From positions 1 through 26,836 of the IMG/VR virus record IMGVR_UViG_3300032053_000432: a DNA stretch of 26,836 nt. One strand, given 5' to 3'. The translations under genes were made by a program, and so were the position numbers. Source of the stretch: a virus. Under the pieces are notes generated by a model. That model was not told where the DNA came from and made no database searches. It saw nothing but the letters and a program-made list of their open reading frames with translations. Below are positions 8,678-16,932 of the stretch, one piece after another (positions within the stretch are counted from its first letter, which is position 1; every line of letters starts with the position of its first letter).

Positions 8678-9957
8678 TGGGCCGCGAAAAACTGACCATC
8701 CCATTCGTATTCGAGGAGGCGAACCGCTCTAGGCTTACCTTCAGCGATACAACCAAGGTTCGACTCAACCCAATCACGAACAGGATCGAGCTTCGCAGCC
8801 AGGGTTATGACCTGGTCACTGGGCTGCCAACGTACCCCGTCTTGCCTGCTCGGCCGTGGGTCAGGACGTGGGCGGTCACCCCGGAAGCGATGCGCCAGTG
8901 GCTTTCGTTCTGGTGCGAGGCGCAGCTCCCTACCGGCACCTCTGTGATGTTCCGGCTCAACAACGGAACGGCTGACTACTTTTGGAACACCACCCCGCCA
9001 ACCCCAGCTTGGACGGTGGTCGTCACCGAGGCGACCGACTGGAGCACCCATGATGCGGTGGCGGAGCACATAGCAACCTTCCCTGTCACGTCAGGCAAGA
9101 TAGCGGTCGTGGTCGGGCTAGGCACAACCAATGCATCGGTTACTCCGCAGGTCCAGTACGTGGATGTGCTGATGGATTGTGAGCTGGAGTGGTTCTACAG
9201 CATCCTGGCCGCGACCGTCCTGCCCGAGCTGAGGGAACATCTCCAAGTCCCCGTGGACTTCTCCCTGAACGCCCCTGGCGGGCTGCGGGTGTCCTTGCTG
9301 GATGTGGAGACCCCGTTCAACATCCTGTCGGTTGGGGCGGTGTACGATCACCAGGCTGACCCTCACCACCGCACCAGCCTGCTATCGACCTACGATGCTA
9401 CCAGCCGAAGCATCCTCTTGACGGTGAGCGTGGCACGCGGCGTTCCACTGTGGATCGTCTTCATTGCGGAGCCCGAGGTCGTTGTCAATTGGGCTAGTCA
9501 GGACTACGTGGAGGTGGAGAAGATTCCGGCTGTGGTCATAGACGGGATTGAGCCCACGATCTACCAGAACTTCGCCGAGCAGCACACCAAGAACATCCAC
9601 ACCAAGACAGCGGTCGTCCGCAGGAGGCCGCTTAGACTTACCGTGCGCTTTGAGGTAGTATTGCTGGCAGAGAAAACCCGGACCTTGCTGGCGATGATGG
9701 GACAGGCGCTGAAGTTCATTTCCAGTCACCCCGTGCTACGGTGGAGAGACCTAGACCAGGACGTCTCCCTGCATGGGTTCGGGCCTGCCTTATCTGGGCG
9801 CCCCAACCTGAGTGACAAGCACGAGGCCGTGGCGAAGTTCGCGCTGGAGAACCTGTACCTCTGGGTGGCACCCGAAGAAACACCGCACCTTGTCGAGCGG
9901 CTCAACCTTTCTCTCAGCCACACGGCACAGAGTGGTCCGCTCTGGCCTGGGGCATAG
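8677..9957 (+). CDS. Large unknown protein in tail-terminator slot
   Basis: 426 residues from ATG 8677 (TGATG overlap; TAGGGG upstream). No named family recognised. The N-terminus has strands and a tryptophan-rich stretch (WVRTWAVTPEAMRQWLSFW). Residues 135-290 are beta-rich, and 291-400 look mixed, with a KIPAVVIDGIEP loop and a helical LAEKTRTLLAMMGQALKF segment. Position between tail completion and sheath is where tail terminator or sheath-cap genes usually sit, but terminators are usually under 200 residues. It may be a terminator with extra domains or a neck-whisker protein. Structural role likely, precise role open. Confidence 0.6.
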   Translation: MGREKLTIPFVFEEANRSRLTFSDTTKVRLNPITNRIELRSQGYDLVTGLPTYPVLPARPWVRTWAVTPEAMRQWLSFWCEAQLPTGTSVMFRLNNGTADYFWNTTPPTPAWTVVVTEATDWSTHDAVAEHIATFPVTSGKIAVVVGLGTTNASVTPQVQYVDVLMDCELEWFYSILAATVLPELREHLQVPVDFSLNAPGGLRVSLLDVETPFNILSVGAVYDHQADPHHRTSLLSTYDATSRSILLTVSVARGVPLWIVFIAEPEVVVNWASQDYVEVEKIPAVVIDGIEPTIYQNFAEQHTKNIHTKTAVVRRRPLRLTVRFEVVLLAEKTRTLLAMMGQALKFISSHPVLRWRDLDQDVSLHGFGPALSGRPNLSDKHEAVAKFALENLYLWVAPEETPHLVERLNLSLSHTAQSGPLWPGA

Positions 9958-9971
9958 CGAAGGAGAAACAG

Positions 9972-12900
9972 ATGGCCCAGAAACGGTTTGGACCAACTCA
10001 GGATGCAGGCACGGTCATTCTCGAGAAGGAAGCCGAGAAGACGATCCAGGCGCATACCCTAGGGTCGACGGCCTACGCGGGTATCCTGGAACGCGGGGCG
10101 GTGGGCAGCCTCATCATCACGTCCGGCAAGCGGGACCTGCTGGCCAAGACCGGAGGACTTATCCCTGACAGTCTACTGCCGGACGCGGCACAGCACTTCT
10201 GGGATCACTCCAAGGGCGCGGGCATCCTGTTCCTATACCGCGTGGACGACGGCTCAGGGGTCCGTTCCAGCTTGACCTTGTGGGACCGCAAGAACCCCCG
10301 CAACAAGGTCATCCGTGTTGACGCCAACAACGTCGGCAAGTGGGCGGGGAAGAGGGACACGGTTGTGGTCGACCTGACAGCGGTGCCAGGTGACATCACG
10401 GCTACCGTCATCACCCTGCCGATGGGATACCTCGTCCCGAAGAACAAATGGAAGGGTGGCCTCCTGAAGCTGACAGGCTCGGGGGTGTCCTATTCCATCG
10501 TCTCCAACACAGCCGGGACGGCTGGCGTCCGTGCCACGGTCACATTGGCAGGCGACAGCCGGGCCCTGACGGACTTCGGGCTCGCCACGGACAGGGAGTG
10601 CACCCTCACCCTGGACAACCTGAACGAATGGGGCCTCGAGAAGAAACTGGCGGTGGAGGTCCTGGATGGTCAGCTTCACCCGACCACGGAGTGGGGGCTC
10701 AAGGTCTACGTCAACGATGAACTGGTAAGGAACTACCCCGACCTCTCTTCGGACCCGAATGCTGCCAACTACTACGTGGGCGTGATCAACAAGGACACGT
10801 CCAACGTGTTCATCACGGTCACCGACCTGTGGACTGGAGCCAACACGGCAGACGTACGCCCGGCCAACTGGTTCGGGGCGGTCGCGTCCACGGCCATCAC
10901 CGCGCTAGCGGCTGCGCTCAACACCTTGTGTGTGCGCGTGGACAGCAGCCTGGCTGGGCCGAACACCATCGCCCTCTTCACCTACGGCACCGAGGTCATC
11001 CCAGACACCTACGAGCTGGAGGTGATGTCGACAGGCCCGACGGTCTGGCGACTGAAGTCCCTCGACAAGCAGGCGACGCACACTTTCACCGCACCAGCGG
11101 ACACCGTCGCCTACGCGGCAGACAACCCCAAGTCCATCGGTTTCACGGTGACAGGGGGTGGCGTCGCGGCCGCGACCCTGCTCGGCACGCTGCCGGGCCC
11201 GTGGAACCTGGCCCCAGGTGACACCCTCGTAGGCGCGGTCGACAGGGCGGCAGACCAGACCGCTACGTTCACGGCGAGCGGGGCAGCCCGGGAGAACGCA
11301 CCCGCCGAGACCTACCATATCGACAACCTCTGGACGCTTCTGGTGAAGGTCGACGGGGGCGCGGTTCAGACCATCGTGTTCACCGCTGCCACGGACTTCG
11401 TCGACCACGCTGCGGCCACAGCGGAAGAGGTGGCCGCTGCTATCAACCGCCAGATCGTCGGAGCGAGCGCAACCGCTACCACGGCCGGGACCAAGGTGAC
11501 GATCACCAGCGACAAGAAGGGCTACGGCTCCTTCATCGAGGTCACGGGCGGTACGTCCAATGGCGTCCTTCTGTTCAACACGGCTGAGACCCGGGGCATC
11601 GGGAATGACGGAGCTGGACACAACTTCCTCGATATCGATGCCGTCTCCTTCGCCGAGTTGAAGCCCATCCTCGAGACCGCCTTCAGCAATACCGGAGGTG
11701 TGGTATGCACCGAGGTCGCGGGCTGCCTCCGCATCACGACCCATGGAACAGGCGCTGGGATGTACCTCCAGGTCCAGGCGGGGTCCAGTTGTGAGGGCAT
11801 CTTCGGGCTCTCCACTGTCGAGGTCGAGGGTTCCGGTGGCGTGCCGACACCAGGGGAGAAGTTCACCATATACGTCCTCCCACTCCTGGAGGACGAGGCG
11901 ATCAACGGGCGAATCTTCTACCCGGACGTTGCCCTGGCGCCGAAGGCCGGTTGGATCGTTTCCGACAACACGGAGGTCGGGGTCTCCATCGCAACCGGGG
12001 ACCTGACCATCGGCGGGACCATCGGTGGAAACGTGAAGGTCAGACTCCAGTACCGCCAGACCCTGATGGGTGGGTATGACGGGATCCATGACCTGGCGTC
12101 CCATGACTTCAGCCCTGCTTACGACCCGAGCACCTCTCCGTTCAACCAGACGGAGGGGCAGGGGTACGGGCTGATCAAGCACGCCACGCCGGGCATCTGG
12201 AAGATCGGCGGGAACGTGGACGCGACCACGGTGCAGAAGGCTGGCCAGGCGTACGCCGACCAAAAGAACCACCAATTCCGTTTCGAGTTCCAGGACACGA
12301 TCACCGACGAGTTTGTCGCCAAGGCGTACCTCGACACGATCGGGAGGAGCGATTACGAGAAATGCATATTCCCGAGTTACGCCAGCATCGCTGACCCTGT
12401 GAAGGACGGGGTCCTCAAGCTGGTGTCGGTCACGGGCATGGTTCATGGGGTCGAGGCAAGGACGGCGAAGGACTACGACGGCTACCACAAGGTGGCGGCT
12501 GGCATCTACGCCCAGCTACCACTCATCAAGGAACTCCCGATTGGGGACGTCAAGCTGAACGGCGAGGTGCTCAACCCGGCAGGAATCCCGAGGATCGAGC
12601 GCAAGGGTGGCAACTACATCATATGGGGCGCTCGGCTGCCGTCGCTCGACCTCGGCTGGAAGTGGTGTCAGCAACGGGAACTGATGTCCTACTATGAGCA
12701 CGTCCTGTCCGAGTCCTTCGACTGGATCATCTTCGCCATCAACGATGAGTTGGAGCAACCTGCGGCTGTGGCTGCTCTCCAGAGCTTCTTCCAGCCGGAG
12801 TGGAGGAAGCGGGCGCTTCGAGGCGCCACGTTCGAGGAGGCGTGTGAGATCAAGATGGATGCGGAGAACAACACCAACGCCACCAGAGCTGCCGGGGACA

Positions 12901-12998
12901 TGAATGTGGAGATCAAGCTGAGGCTCCCCGATACCGTGGAGCGGTTCATCATCACCATGTCCAAGATGGGCATCTTTGAATCCACGGCGGCAGCGTAG
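9972..12998 (+). CDS. Contractile tail sheath, oversized
   Basis: 1008 residues from ATG 9972 with GAAGGAG upstream. The C-terminal third (about 690-1008) is the conserved sheath core: QFRFEFQDTITDEFVAKAYL, a GVEARTAKDYDGYHKVAAGIYAQLP stretch, NYIIWGARLPS, the helical FDWIIFAINDEL, and an EIKLRLPDTVERFIITM final strand used to link neighbouring subunits. The N-terminus (LGSTAYAGILERG) also fits. Common sheaths run about 380-700 residues; the excess lies in the middle (about 370-660) and includes two related modules: TAEEVAAAINRQI near 482 followed by KVTITSDKKGYG, then a weaker second copy, FAELKPILETAF and LRITTHGTGAG. Such insertions project from the sheath surface in other phages. It contracts at infection to drive the tube through the cell envelope. 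Confidence 0.93.
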   Translation: MAQKRFGPTQDAGTVILEKEAEKTIQAHTLGSTAYAGILERGAVGSLIITSGKRDLLAKTGGLIPDSLLPDAAQHFWDHSKGAGILFLYRVDDGSGVRSSLTLWDRKNPRNKVIRVDANNVGKWAGKRDTVVVDLTAVPGDITATVITLPMGYLVPKNKWKGGLLKLTGSGVSYSIVSNTAGTAGVRATVTLAGDSRALTDFGLATDRECTLTLDNLNEWGLEKKLAVEVLDGQLHPTTEWGLKVYVNDELVRNYPDLSSDPNAANYYVGVINKDTSNVFITVTDLWTGANTADVRPANWFGAVASTAITALAAALNTLCVRVDSSLAGPNTIALFTYGTEVIPDTYELEVMSTGPTVWRLKSLDKQATHTFTAPADTVAYAADNPKSIGFTVTGGGVAAATLLGTLPGPWNLAPGDTLVGAVDRAADQTATFTASGAARENAPAETYHIDNLWTLLVKVDGGAVQTIVFTAATDFVDHAAATAEEVAAAINRQIVGASATATTAGTKVTITSDKKGYGSFIEVTGGTSNGVLLFNTAETRGIGNDGAGHNFLDIDAVSFAELKPILETAFSNTGGVVCTEVAGCLRITTHGTGAGMYLQVQAGSSCEGIFGLSTVEVEGSGGVPTPGEKFTIYVLPLLEDEAINGRIFYPDVALAPKAGWIVSDNTEVGVSIATGDLTIGGTIGGNVKVRLQYRQTLMGGYDGIHDLASHDFSPAYDPSTSPFNQTEGQGYGLIKHATPGIWKIGGNVDATTVQKAGQAYADQKNHQFRFEFQDTITDEFVAKAYLDTIGRSDYEKCIFPSYASIADPVKDGVLKLVSVTGMVHGVEARTAKDYDGYHKVAAGIYAQLPLIKELPIGDVKLNGEVLNPAGIPRIERKGGNYIIWGARLPSLDLGWKWCQQRELMSYYEHVLSESFDWIIFAINDELEQPAAVAALQSFFQPEWRKRALRGATFEEACEIKMDAENNTNATRAAGDMNVEIKLRLPDTVERFIITMSKMGIFESTAAA

Positions 12999-13012
12999 GA
13001 AGGAGTTGACCT

Positions 13013-13456
13013 ATGTCGATCAAGAACGTGGTACAGCCCAACCGGGTGCAGGTGAACAAGTACCAACTCATCGTGCAGCCTGGGGTCGGCTCTGTCCTCC
13101 TCGTGTCGATCGGCGGACTGGAGGAAGAGCTGGACAAGGTCGACCTCCCCGACCGAACCTCCCGCAGTGGTGGGAGGGAGAAGCAGGGCGAGACGGAGAT
13201 CGTCCAGCCGATGCACCATGACCTCGAGGTGCTGGCGATGGAGACGTGGTATCGGATGTGCAAGAACACGCTCCCGCTCTACCTCAAGCTGGGCATCCTG
13301 ATGATCTTTGACGAATGGGGTAGCCCACGCAAACGCTACACCCTGCCCAATTGCTGGCTGAGCAAGCGCAAGCACGCTGACCTCGAGCTGGACAACGACG
13401 GAGAGATGGCGACGATCACCTGGACGATGAATTACGACCAGATCATCCCCATGTAG
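13013..13456 (+). CDS. Tail tube protein
   Basis: 147 residues from ATG 13013, with AGGAAGGAG upstream. The gene follows the sheath directly, as the tube does in contractile tails. Family features are the N-terminal YQLIVQPGVGSVLLVSIGGLEEELDKVDLPD strand-loop, a QGETEIVQPM hairpin, the helical LEVLAMETWYRMCK, and NCWLSKRKHADLELDNDG with ATITWTMNYDQI at the end. It forms stacked hexamer rings inside the sheath. The stop codon lies in the left arm of a strong hairpin, which may set the level of downstream expression. Confidence 0.88.
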   Translation: MSIKNVVQPNRVQVNKYQLIVQPGVGSVLLVSIGGLEEELDKVDLPDRTSRSGGREKQGETEIVQPMHHDLEVLAMETWYRMCKNTLPLYLKLGILMIFDEWGSPRKRYTLPNCWLSKRKHADLELDNDGEMATITWTMNYDQIIPM

Positions 13457-13480
13457 GATGCTCAAAGTCTGAGCATCCTA
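13454..13480 (+). terminator. Perfect 11-bp hairpin after tail tube gene
   Basis: TAGGATGCTCA (13454-13464), a five-base loop AAGTC and TGAGCATCCTA (13470-13480) form a perfect stem that includes the tube stop codon. There is no clear U-run after it, so it may be a partial or U-less terminator, or an RNA-stabilising hairpin protecting the abundant sheath-tube message. Confidence 0.6.
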
Positions 13481-13505
13481 TCTACCGCCCCTCCGTTCTT
13501 CACAA

Positions 13506-13518
13506 ACGCCGCTGGCGT
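13506..13518 (+). other. Small hairpin before chaperone ribosome site
   Basis: ACGCC, loop GCT, GGCGT form a short 5-bp stem ending a few bases before the GGGAGGA ribosome site (13523-13529). It may tune translation of the chaperone; short enough to be chance. Confidence 0.3.
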
Positions 13519-13535
13519 AATTGGGAGGACGACCA

Positions 13536-14360
13536 ATGAATCGCACCACCATCAAGGAACAGGGCCTGCGGCTTCCCATCGGGGAGCTGAAGGACGGGAA
13601 GCTGGTCAAGGAGTTCACCCTCCGCTCCTACAAGGGCAAGGTGGACCGCCTCCTCAACACCTACCGGGAAGCCAACGAGGGCCGGAGCATCGCCTACCTC
13701 GCTGCCAAGTACCTCAGCATGATCGTGGAGACCGCCGGGGGAGTAGCCTACCCCTTGCTGGAGACAGGGGATTCGTCGCCGGAGCAGGAGAGCCGGATGC
13801 ACGGTTGGTTCTTCGCCGACTTCCTCTATGCCTATGTCTACTCCCGGATCGTCAACGTCTCGGAGTGGATCGAGGTGCCAGCGGTCTGCCCTTCTCCCAG
13901 GTGCAATTACAAGGGCACGCCACGTGCCGACCTCTGGACGACCGACGTAACCGTCTTTGATGACCCCGGGGAGCTGCACACCTGGATCAACCTTCGCGAT
14001 GGCATCAGGGTTGGGGACAGGGTGTCCAAGCGGATCAAGCTGCAAGCTGTCCGCTACCGCGCCATGCTGTTGAGCGGGGCACAGGATGTCAACAGCGTCT
14101 CCTATTCCCAGCTACGGGAGGCCATCGTGGAGATCGAAGGGGTGCAGCCCGGCTACGTCCCAACCGACACTGACCTGGACGCGTTATCCAAGTTCGACCT
14201 TCTTCGCATTGACAGGCAGGCTGGGGTCGTTGCTGCCGGACTGGACCTGCGGACGGTCATCCAGTGCCCCAAGTGCGGTATGGACATCCGTGGCGTGTTC
14301 AGCTGGGCTTTCGACCCTTTCTTCGATACTTCAGTTCCGTTGGACATCCTGACCGCCTGA
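13536..14360 (+). CDS. Tail assembly chaperone, zero-frame product (T4 gp26-like)
   Basis: 274 residues from ATG 13536, chosen because GGGAGGA (13523-13529) sits just upstream; an in-frame TTG at 13521 overlaps that site and is unlikely. Four cysteines form a probable zinc site: Cys118-x4-Cys123 and Cys244-x2-Cys247 (CPKCGMD). The C-terminal CPKCG...FDPFF pattern is that of T4 gp26-like base-plate/assembly proteins, and the gene lies between tube and tape measure, where chaperones sit. The product ends at TGA 14358-14360 unless ribosomes slip at CCCTTTC (14315-14321), which gives a 321-residue form. These chaperones coat the tape measure during tail assembly and are absent from the finished virion. 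Confidence 0.8.
   Translation: MNRTTIKEQGLRLPIGELKDGKLVKEFTLRSYKGKVDRLLNTYREANEGRSIAYLAAKYLSMIVETAGGVAYPLLETGDSSPEQESRMHGWFFADFLYAYVYSRIVNVSEWIEVPAVCPSPRCNYKGTPRADLWTTDVTVFDDPGELHTWINLRDGIRVGDRVSKRIKLQAVRYRAMLLSGAQDVNSVSYSQLREAIVEIEGVQPGYVPTDTDLDALSKFDLLRIDRQAGVVAAGLDLRTVIQCPKCGMDIRGVFSWAFDPFFDTSVPLDILTA
14315..14321 (+). promoter_or_regulatory. Predicted -1 ribosomal frameshift site CCCTTTC
   Basis: In the zero frame it reads C CCT TTC, i.e. X XXY YYZ with X=C and Y=T. Both tRNAs (Pro, Phe) can re-pair after one step back, to CCC TTT. The -1 frame is then open to TGA 14498-14500. Programmed -1 shifts between two chaperone frames just before the tape measure are well established in tailed phages. 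Confidence 0.8.
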
Positions 14361-14500
14361 GGGAGGACATCCACACCCTCATGTACTTTGGGCACGGCTT
14401 CACGTTTTCGGATATCCTAGAGCTGACGGAGAAGGAACGAGCGTGGTTTATGAAGCGTCTTCTCCGTCAGCTCAGGACTGAGGCAAAGAAGAGGACGTGA
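14315..14500 (+). CDS. Tail assembly chaperone, -1 frameshift extension
   Basis: Read only after the slip at 14315-14321, this adds about 60 residues to the chaperone (total 321). The segment LREDIHTLMYFGHGFTFSDILELTEKERAWF has the helical composition and the L-x-x-EI-x-x-L, E-R-x-W-F pattern typical of chaperone C-terminal extensions, which are thought to grip the tape measure. No good ribosome site precedes a start in this frame; the internal ATG at 14381 lacks one, so independent translation is unlikely. It ends in TGATG with the tape measure gene. Confidence 0.75.
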   Translation, partial: PFLRYFSSVGHPDRLREDIHTLMYFGHGFTFSDILELTEKERAWFMKRLLRQLRTEAKKRT

Positions 14501-16932
14501 TGGCAGACCAACTTGGGTTGAACGCCAGGCTGACCTTCGACGGCACCCAGGCTATCACTGGGATGGCGAAGACCAACACGGCGTTTACCGCAATGCAGGC
14601 TCAGATGGGGAAGGTGCGGGCTGGTTTCGGGCAGGTGAAAGCGGGGCTAGGCGGGTTGAGGATTGGCGGGATCATCGCGGGCGTTGGCATCGGGGCGGCT
14701 ATTAGAGGGTACGCCAAGTTCGATTCCACGATGGCGGGCGTCCGGGCACAACTTGGGATAGAGGCTAGCAAGGACTTCCCACGACTAGAGACGGCTGCGC
14801 GATCCATGGCCGCCGAGACGGGGAAGGCGGGTGGGACAGTAGCCGAGGGGATGAAGGCGCTAGCGGAGAAGGGGCTTGACGCCAACGAGATCCTGCAAGC
14901 CATCAAGCCGACCCTAAACGGCATGACCGCAAGTGGTACGGACGCGAACACCTCCGCTGTCATGCTTGTGGATACCTACCGAAAGTTCGGACTGGGGGCG
15001 GACCAGGCCGGGAAGTCCATGGACACCATCGTCCAAGCGGCCCGGCTTGGGGGCAAGGGTGGGGCTGTCCCTGAATTTGCATCGGCTCTGCAATCAATAG
15101 GAGGAACCGCTCAACTCCTGCACCTGGACATGAAGGACGCGGCTGCGGGCTTAGCACTGTTCACTAAGGGCGGGCTGGACTCTGGGTCTGCTGCCATGAA
15201 CCTCAACATGGCGCTCCTCAAGATGTCCAGGGCGAGCAAGGACGGGTACCTCTCCATCGCCGGTCTGGGCAAGGTAGCGATCCCGACCAAGAACGGGGCG
15301 ATGGACCTCCAGGGGACAATGACCAACATCGCCGTCGCCTTGAACTATGTGAAGGACCCGATGGAGCGGGTCAACCTCGCCATGTCGCTGTTCGGGATGC
15401 GAGGCAGGGAATCGGCGGCAGCCTTGGAGAAGCTGACTAAGGACCCCACGGCCCTGCCCAAGATGTTCGCCGACATCCGCAACAAGTCGGATGGTGCTAC
15501 CGCAGCGATGGCGAAGATGAAGACGGACACGTTGGAGGGGCGGTTCAAGAAGTTGCAGAACGCCCTGGCCAACGTGTCCATGGAGATTGGTTCTGCCTTC
15601 CTCCCGTTCGTGGAACGTGGAGTCAAAGCCATCGTGCCGATGGCCCAGCAATTCGCCACGGCGTTCAGGTTCTTCACCACAACGCCAGGTGCCGTGGAGA
15701 AGATGGGTACCACCATTGCTGGGGTCAGCCCTACGATCACGGCGATGTCCCAGGGGCTCATTGCGGGCTTTGCTGGAGTAAAGGAGGCGGCTAACTGGGT
15801 GATCGGCGGTGTCCGCACCATCGGTGGGTTGTTCGGCGGGGGCGGGCCTGGTTCATCAGGCATCAAGACGACCATGGAGTGGGCCGTCAAGCTGGCTGCC
15901 GTTGCGGGTGCCTACAAGCTCCTTGGGCCGGTGATCAAGTCCGCTATGAACATCGGCATCGGCGCAGGCAAGATGCTGGTTGGCTCCCTGTCTGCCCTTG
16001 GCACCGCGTCTACCGGGCTACTCGGTCTCATTGGCAAGCGATTCCCGGCTGTGGCCAAGATGCTCCCACGAGGAGCGGGGGCTCTTGGGAAGGTGCTGGG
16101 TGCGGCGGAGAAGATCACGGCACAGCCTGTCCGCATCGTGAACTGGGACGAGGCGGGTATGGCGGGGACGGGTGGGACCTCGCCTGGCGCGCTACCAGCT
16201 CCTGGGGCCACCCCCGGCAGTCCGCAGGGCTGGAGGGCGCGGGCATCCGGTAAGCTCGGCTCGCTGGGTGGTGGGGTTGCCATGGCTGTGGGCGGAGGCA
16301 TCGCTCTTAACATGCTCCAGGGCGAGATGACCGGGCCGATCAAGACGGTGGGCAACACCATCCTGGGCATCTCGGCGATGTTTGGGCCGGCTGGCATGGC
16401 CGTCGGTGGCATTGCAGCGGCCACGATGGCGTTCGGCACCAAGATAGACGAGTGGACGGGGGCCAGCACCTTCGCTGCCAATTCCATGTTCAACTTCGCC
16501 CAGTCCATCAGTGCCGAGGCCAGGGCAGCGGCCATGCGGGCGTACACAGGCAACGTGGCGTTCGAGGAAGCCATGCGGACAGCCAAACAGATGGTGGGCA
16601 TTGCTGGGCGCGGCGGGACCGTCGGGCTTGAGGGCGGCGTACGAAGGGGCGTCACTTCGGAGTTGATACAGGAGAGGATCGCCAAGTCAGCGGCCCTGGC
16701 AGCCAAGTCATCAGGCGCAACCGTTGAGGAGCAGAAGGCCATGGTCCAAGCCGTCATGCGTGAGATGGGCCCACAATTGGCTGCGGCGATCAAGAACAAC
16801 ATCAAGGTCGAGGCGACCCTGCTCCTGGACAGCCGCCCGGTGGCCAAGGGCGTAGCCGGGGCTGAGCAGGAGAAGAAGGAGCGGCGCGGTGAGAGCCAAG
16901 CTCCAGGTTCCCGCAGAAGGGCAGCAAGCTGA
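14500..16932 (+). CDS. Tail tape measure protein
   Basis: 810 residues from ATG 14500, sharing a base with the chaperone stop; an in-frame GTG one codon earlier is possible. Residues 55-300 resemble the PhageMin_Tail core: a GYAKFDSTMAGVRAQLG stretch, ETAARSMAAETGKAGGTVAEGMKALA, and DKDAAAGLALFTKGG-type helix (MKDAAAGLALFTKGGL). The middle and C-terminal parts carry several long hydrophobic, Gly/Ala-rich segments (for example 54-70 and several after 460), suited to membrane insertion after ejection. By the usual rule of about 1.5 angstrom per residue the tail would be near 120 nm. No muralytic domain is visible. The end overlaps the LysM gene (TGATG). Confidence 0.9.
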   Translation: MADQLGLNARLTFDGTQAITGMAKTNTAFTAMQAQMGKVRAGFGQVKAGLGGLRIGGIIAGVGIGAAIRGYAKFDSTMAGVRAQLGIEASKDFPRLETAARSMAAETGKAGGTVAEGMKALAEKGLDANEILQAIKPTLNGMTASGTDANTSAVMLVDTYRKFGLGADQAGKSMDTIVQAARLGGKGGAVPEFASALQSIGGTAQLLHLDMKDAAAGLALFTKGGLDSGSAAMNLNMALLKMSRASKDGYLSIAGLGKVAIPTKNGAMDLQGTMTNIAVALNYVKDPMERVNLAMSLFGMRGRESAAALEKLTKDPTALPKMFADIRNKSDGATAAMAKMKTDTLEGRFKKLQNALANVSMEIGSAFLPFVERGVKAIVPMAQQFATAFRFFTTTPGAVEKMGTTIAGVSPTITAMSQGLIAGFAGVKEAANWVIGGVRTIGGLFGGGGPGSSGIKTTMEWAVKLAAVAGAYKLLGPVIKSAMNIGIGAGKMLVGSLSALGTASTGLLGLIGKRFPAVAKMLPRGAGALGKVLGAAEKITAQPVRIVNWDEAGMAGTGGTSPGALPAPGATPGSPQGWRARASGKLGSLGGGVAMAVGGGIALNMLQGEMTGPIKTVGNTILGISAMFGPAGMAVGGIAAATMAFGTKIDEWTGASTFAANSMFNFAQSISAEARAAAMRAYTGNVAFEEAMRTAKQMVGIAGRGGTVGLEGGVRRGVTSELIQERIAKSAALAAKSSGATVEEQKAMVQAVMREMGPQLAAAIKNNIKVEATLLLDSRPVAKGVAGAEQEKKERRGESQAPGSRRRAAS

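Follow-up and report, generated by a model that had tools for sequence, protein, structure and literature searches.

Tail assembly chaperones and their frameshifts

The tail assembly chaperone frameshift that is conserved among long-tailed phages is typified by lambda gpG/gpGT (Xu, Hendrix and Duda 2004, as described in PMC5009743), and T4 has been named as an exception to it (PMC5009743). In T4, gp26 and gp51 are both listed as hub assembly chaperones; gp51 is required for assembly, although it is absent from the particle and its function is unknown, and earlier genetics had put gp26 in the hub (PMC3004832). Shifts in the other direction have been described as well. The annotated shifted tail chaperone of the haloarchaeal myovirus HSTV-2 (L101:14982-15813), which carries AAG TCC TTT CGC AGA in its overlap, has been called very likely +1 (PMC5009743), and influenza PA-X, a eukaryotic virus gene unlike the phage chaperone family studied here, shifts +1 at UCC_UUU_CGU (PMC3498833).

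The stretch of DNA analysed here, referred to as the window, is a 26.8-kb viral contig with contractile-tail genes in the order sheath, tube, chaperone gene, tape measure and baseplate genes. As in lambda, the chaperone gene lies between tube and tape measure, and a short form and a -1-shifted long form are predicted around a slippery heptamer. Unlike in lambda, the short form falls in the T4 gp26/gp51 (T4_baseplate) homology group and has a Cys4 site, and the likeness to gpG/gpGT is one of layout.

Organisation of the locus and the slip site

The features of the locus are as follows.

9972..12998, + strand: tail sheath gene (context, family scans)
13013..13456, + strand: tail tube gene (context, family scans)
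13523-13529, + strand: RBS-like GGGAGGA ahead of the zero-frame ORF
13536..14360, + strand: zero-frame ORF, 274 aa, probable divergent homologue of T4 gp26/gp51 (predicted short form)
13887..13904, + strand: first Cys pair, C118 and C123 (CPSPRC)
14265..14276, + strand: second Cys pair, C244 and C247 (CPKC)
14315..14321, + strand: putative slippery heptamer C_CCT_TTC for a -1 frameshift
14321..14500, + strand: -1 frame extension after the slip, 59 codons and TGA (predicted long form, 321 aa)
14360..14383, + strand: SD-like GGGAGG and in-frame ATG 14381, a possible separate start of the -1 ORF, poorly conserved
14500..16932, + strand: tape measure gene (context, family scans)

The zero-frame ORF runs from the ATG at 13536 to the TGA at 14358-14360. 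It has two characteristics of a G/GT-type gene, namely its place directly before the tape measure gene and after the tail tube gene, and a shifted overlapping downstream ORF that is conserved as protein. This -1 frame is open from 14213 to 14497, and its TGA at 14498-14500 overlaps the tape measure ATG at 14500. Within the overlap, CCCTTTC stands in register (gaC CCT TTC) 36 nt ahead of the zero-frame stop codon and is the sole in-register X_XXY_YYZ heptamer of the 274-aa gene; across the window genes such heptamers average 0.0018 per codon, with about 0.09 expected in the 49-codon overlap. The P-site codon would be that of Pro261, 14 residues past Cys247. A shift at this place adds 59 residues, giving a transframe product of 321 aa whose predicted junction peptide is GVFSWAFDPFLR. 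An earlier note on this DNA had proposed just such an arrangement, with the heptamer in register 37 bases before the stop, a slip 14 residues after the last cysteine and a -1 frame of about 60 residues ending at the tape measure start; the figures given above bear this out to within a base and a residue, and translation returns the 321-residue product that it had named. The RNA 3' of the slip is predicted to fold no more stably than shuffled sequences (z +0.05 to +0.94), and no stimulatory hairpin was found there.

At the sequence level, the observation of a putative programmed -1 frameshift site in the chaperone gene is confirmed. We propose that a -1 slip on C_CCT_TTC lets the gene at 13536-14500 specify both members of a G/GT-type pair of tail assembly chaperones, a reading to which we give a probability of roughly 0.9.

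Conservation of the slip site in the -1 clade

Scans with the window protein alone matched nothing but a near-identical contig (L001/L127), which is 100% identical to the window over 13911-14513; being identical at the slip, it is uninformative and lends no independent support. No homologue was found in bacterial genomes scanned with single proteins, nor among annotated phages for the chaperones of the window, L105 or L106. Relatives were found by scanning with the baseplate-J proteins and then with the chaperones. These are L105, L106, L107, L108, L129 and L131, all of them metagenomic; L131 is near-identical to L105, and the other five are divergent phage contigs from other metagenomes with 40-58% identity.

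In all of these relatives the extension lies in the -1 frame and the heptamer sits at an F-D-x-F-F motif at the same place in the alignment. The heptamer itself is CCCTTTC in the window, L108 and L129 and TTTTTTC (T_TTT_TTC) in L105, L106 and L107. Hence an in-register slippery site is kept in 6/6 distinct proteins, a count of sequences that are kin and non-independent; with protein and codon usage fixed and the proteins treated as independent, the product of the probabilities for a heptamer in all six is 5.7e-5. Furthermore, in L108 and L129 a TGA in the -1 frame abuts the heptamer, as the codon just before it, and therefore the shift must take place at or after the heptamer and not upstream.

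A homologous family with the extension in the +1 frame

Similarity of the sheath led to a second group, the +1 clade, made up of the Streptomyces phages BRock, GiJojo, LuckySocke and pSt2308 and many IMG/VR contigs. The Streptomyces phages encode, between tube and tape measure, a Cys4 protein with matches to PF12322 (T4_baseplate) and phrog_150 (baseplate hub), and next to it a small helical ORF in the +1 frame. From 334 candidate stretches found in a scan with this family, the best 80 contigs were taken further; every one of these 80 that was examined has the small ORF in the +1 frame. In 74/74 distinct, though related and non-independent, proteins from the same best 80 contigs of the 334 stretches, TTT followed by C occurs two to three codons before the stop and exactly 14 residues past the last Cys, the codon after TTT being CGN (55) or CAR (19). 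Elsewhere in the genes of this clade, Phe is encoded by TTT 305 times and by TTC 167 times. We infer that a +1 shift occurs at UUU_C, a -2 shift being another way into this frame. The sites of HSTV-2 and PA-X resemble this motif, and neither is a -1 shift; as a homologue the HSTV-2 chaperone was rejected, as it shows no similarity to the window family by HMM.

The +1 clade and the window have in common the homologous chaperone and extension, the gene order, the Cys4 site and a frame change 14 residues past the last Cys, and they differ in that the former has an invariant TTT_C and, beyond it, the extension in the +1 frame. By hhalign profile comparison, in which P-values are pairwise and remote profiles rest on small alignments, the two clades match over 207 columns of the chaperone part (P 5.8e-6), in the extension (P 3.4e-6) and as whole fusions (P 8.1e-10). 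In column-shuffle controls of the extension comparisons, the observed score was reached in 0/300 cases. As a blind check, HMMs of the +1 clade were run against all 586 stop-to-stop ORFs of the window; weak as the matches are, the zero-frame ORF ranked first for the chaperone part (E 0.88) and the -1 ORF ranked first for the extension (E 0.046). Two other candidates tested for relationship were set aside, namely the chaperone of mycobacteriophage cluster C (Alice), whose homology was unsupported, and DUF6760 and phrog_634 as the family of the extension, which gave weak matches only.

The sequences L005-L100 (e.g. L005:11183-11422, L020:2020-2190) form a large T4_baseplate chaperone family with the invariant TTT_C and the +1 extension, and we put the motif forward as a candidate conserved +1 frameshift site, apparently unannotated. 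In the deposited genomes the extension appears as a separate small hypothetical gene in GiJojo (gp83, L005), BRock (gp135, L008) and LuckySocke (gp91, L009), and in pSt2308 (L007) it is not annotated. In practice, the annotation of BRock-type phages either lists the extension as a small gene of its own or overlooks it.

The Cys4 site and the relationship to T4 gp26 and gp51

Both Cys pairs are invariant in alignments of 28-30 sequences, and two CX2-4C pairs are present in 74/74 proteins of the +1 clade and 6/6 of the -1 clade. The residues are those listed by the earlier note (118, 123, 244 and 247) for a predicted zinc site, and the site may bind zinc. An invariance of Phe263, seen in one alignment, did not hold in others and was dropped.

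Taken alone, the window proteins gave no significant Pfam or PHROG match. The gathering score of PF12322 was not reached by this clade, the window giving no match and the best relative, L108, scoring 21.0 bits against a cut-off of 24.5; L108 matches phrog_150 with an E of 2.7e-6. Homology to T4_baseplate is reached through intermediates, given the profile P of 5.8e-6 to the +1 clade, which itself passes PF12322. An AlphaFold2 model of the zero-frame protein (pLDDT 83.6, pTM 0.81, the last 11 residues of low confidence) retrieved T4-like baseplate hub assembly proteins from BFVD with E down to 1e-14, and a search of PDB folds with the same model gave no match. The profiles and the model support the window protein as a divergent homologue of T4 gp26/gp51 that is not filed as a Pfam member; the earlier description of it as T4 gp26-like holds by way of intermediates and fold, without a direct Pfam match.

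T4 gp26 and gp51 both match PF12322 over the whole length of the Pfam model (8.8e-64 and 3.9e-52), hence they are paralogues. gp51 is the longer by about 48 residues, and gp26 aligns with the gp51 family up to the last residue of gp26, which falls on gp51 residue 203 (P 1.9e-14). Residue 203 corresponds to the place of the slip, and in gp51 the extension follows in the same frame. The tail of gp51 is similar to the extension of the -1 clade (P 9.4e-6) and to that of the +1 clade (P 1.4e-4), and the gp51 family aligns through the junction of the -1 fusion over 176 columns with a P of 6.5e-7, compared to 0.0018 without the extension. T4 gp26 alone matches the window clade weakly (P 0.007-0.01). 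T4 and the window thus have the homologous domain in common, as well as the C-terminal segment in gp51, but T4 has two divergently oriented genes and no frameshift where the window has one gene with a putative slip.

In our reading of these alignments, the short form would be gp26-like and the long form gp51-like, T4 using two genes. Neither the gp51 counterpart nor the sister clade with its +1 extension figured in the earlier note. It seems fairly probable that genes 26 and 51 of T4 correspond, as a pair, to one frameshifting G/GT gene; T4 would then be no true G/GT exception, and phages of one homologous family would arrive at the two products by shifting -1, by shifting +1 or with two paralogues. 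A link of gp26 and gp51 to short and long forms was not found in the literature searched, which covered few subscription journals.

The same relationship raises the question of function, as PF12322 and phrog_150 are named for the baseplate hub and T4 genetics had placed gp26 there. The slip could be real and its product have another role than that of a G/GT-type chaperone, for example as a low-copy structural part of the hub. This we consider unlikely, given that the gene stands directly before the tape measure as G/GT genes do, that gp51 is needed for assembly yet missing from the finished T4 particle, and that gp26 and gp51 are both listed as hub assembly chaperones (PMC3004832).

Whether the extension is translated separately

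The earlier note had offered a test on homologues, a conserved slip site as opposed to a separate gene with its own ribosome site, and when run this test favours the frameshift. In the window, the -1 ORF could be read as a separate small gene of 39 aa, the GGGAGG at the zero-frame stop letting ribosomes reinitiate, or start by translational coupling, at ATG 14381. The GGGAGG (14361-14366) lies about 14 nt ahead of this ATG, a long spacing, and the conserved LT..ER motif is downstream of it. An ATG is found here in L129 too, preceded by a GGAGG-like stretch; apart from L129 the ATG is common only to the near-identical L127, and it is missing in L105, L106, L107 and L108. L105 and L107 have no ATG, GTG or TTG in the -1 frame from the slip site to +53 past the zero-frame stop. 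Moreover, protein conservation among the relatives begins at the slip, upstream of ATG 14381. The +1 clade agrees, in that 23/70 distinct extensions lack a start codon as far as +60 and an SD-like motif of any kind is seen in only 6, and in T4 gp51 both parts are in one chain. Independent translation of the extension is in our view very improbable. That the two frames come from a mistake in assembly or sequencing, or from a disrupted gene, the intact protein being one continuous chain as in T4 gp51 homologues that encode both parts in one frame, can be dismissed, since the same split and heptamer recur in the five divergent contigs from other metagenomes, besides the near-identical one, and both parts are conserved as proteins.

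Proposed expression of the two forms

According to the proposed -1 slip, most ribosomes would stop at 14360 and yield the 274-aa Cys4 protein, the short gp26-like form. On C_CCT_TTC a minority would move back by one base, so that tRNA-Pro pairs anew with CCC and tRNA-Phe with UUU, and would produce the 321-aa long gp51-like form, ending in a helical segment with the LT..ER motif. With lambda G/GT and T4 gp26/gp51 as models, one would expect both forms to work on the tape measure or the baseplate hub while the tail is assembled, and the virion to lack the long form. The slipping and its rate, the tandem tRNA-Pro/tRNA-Phe slippage, the scarcity of the long form, the chaperone function and the binding partners are all inferred.

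Tail-chaperone frameshifting as such is known, while this gp26/gp51-related family, its switch between -1 and +1 and the link to T4 appear new. Within the family, the same protein pair would be obtained from a -1 slip, from a +1 slip and from two separate genes, which makes it a natural experiment. If the short and long forms correspond to gp26 and gp51, T4 falls under the general scheme and a role of gp51 as a GT-like chaperone of the tape measure can be put to the test; the two-gene arrangement would also explain why T4 seemed to be without a G/GT frameshift.

Variation along the contig

The window sheath (9972-12998) includes a stretch of about 220 residues (residues ~396-620) that is absent from the sheaths of L105-L108 and matches phrog_15814, whose function is unassigned. 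Over 9300-14770, the identity of the window to L004 (IMGVR 3300037137_001020) alternates between blocks of 100% (e.g. 13911-14513) and blocks of 81-93%, and these block-wise jumps suggest recombination or mosaic assembly.
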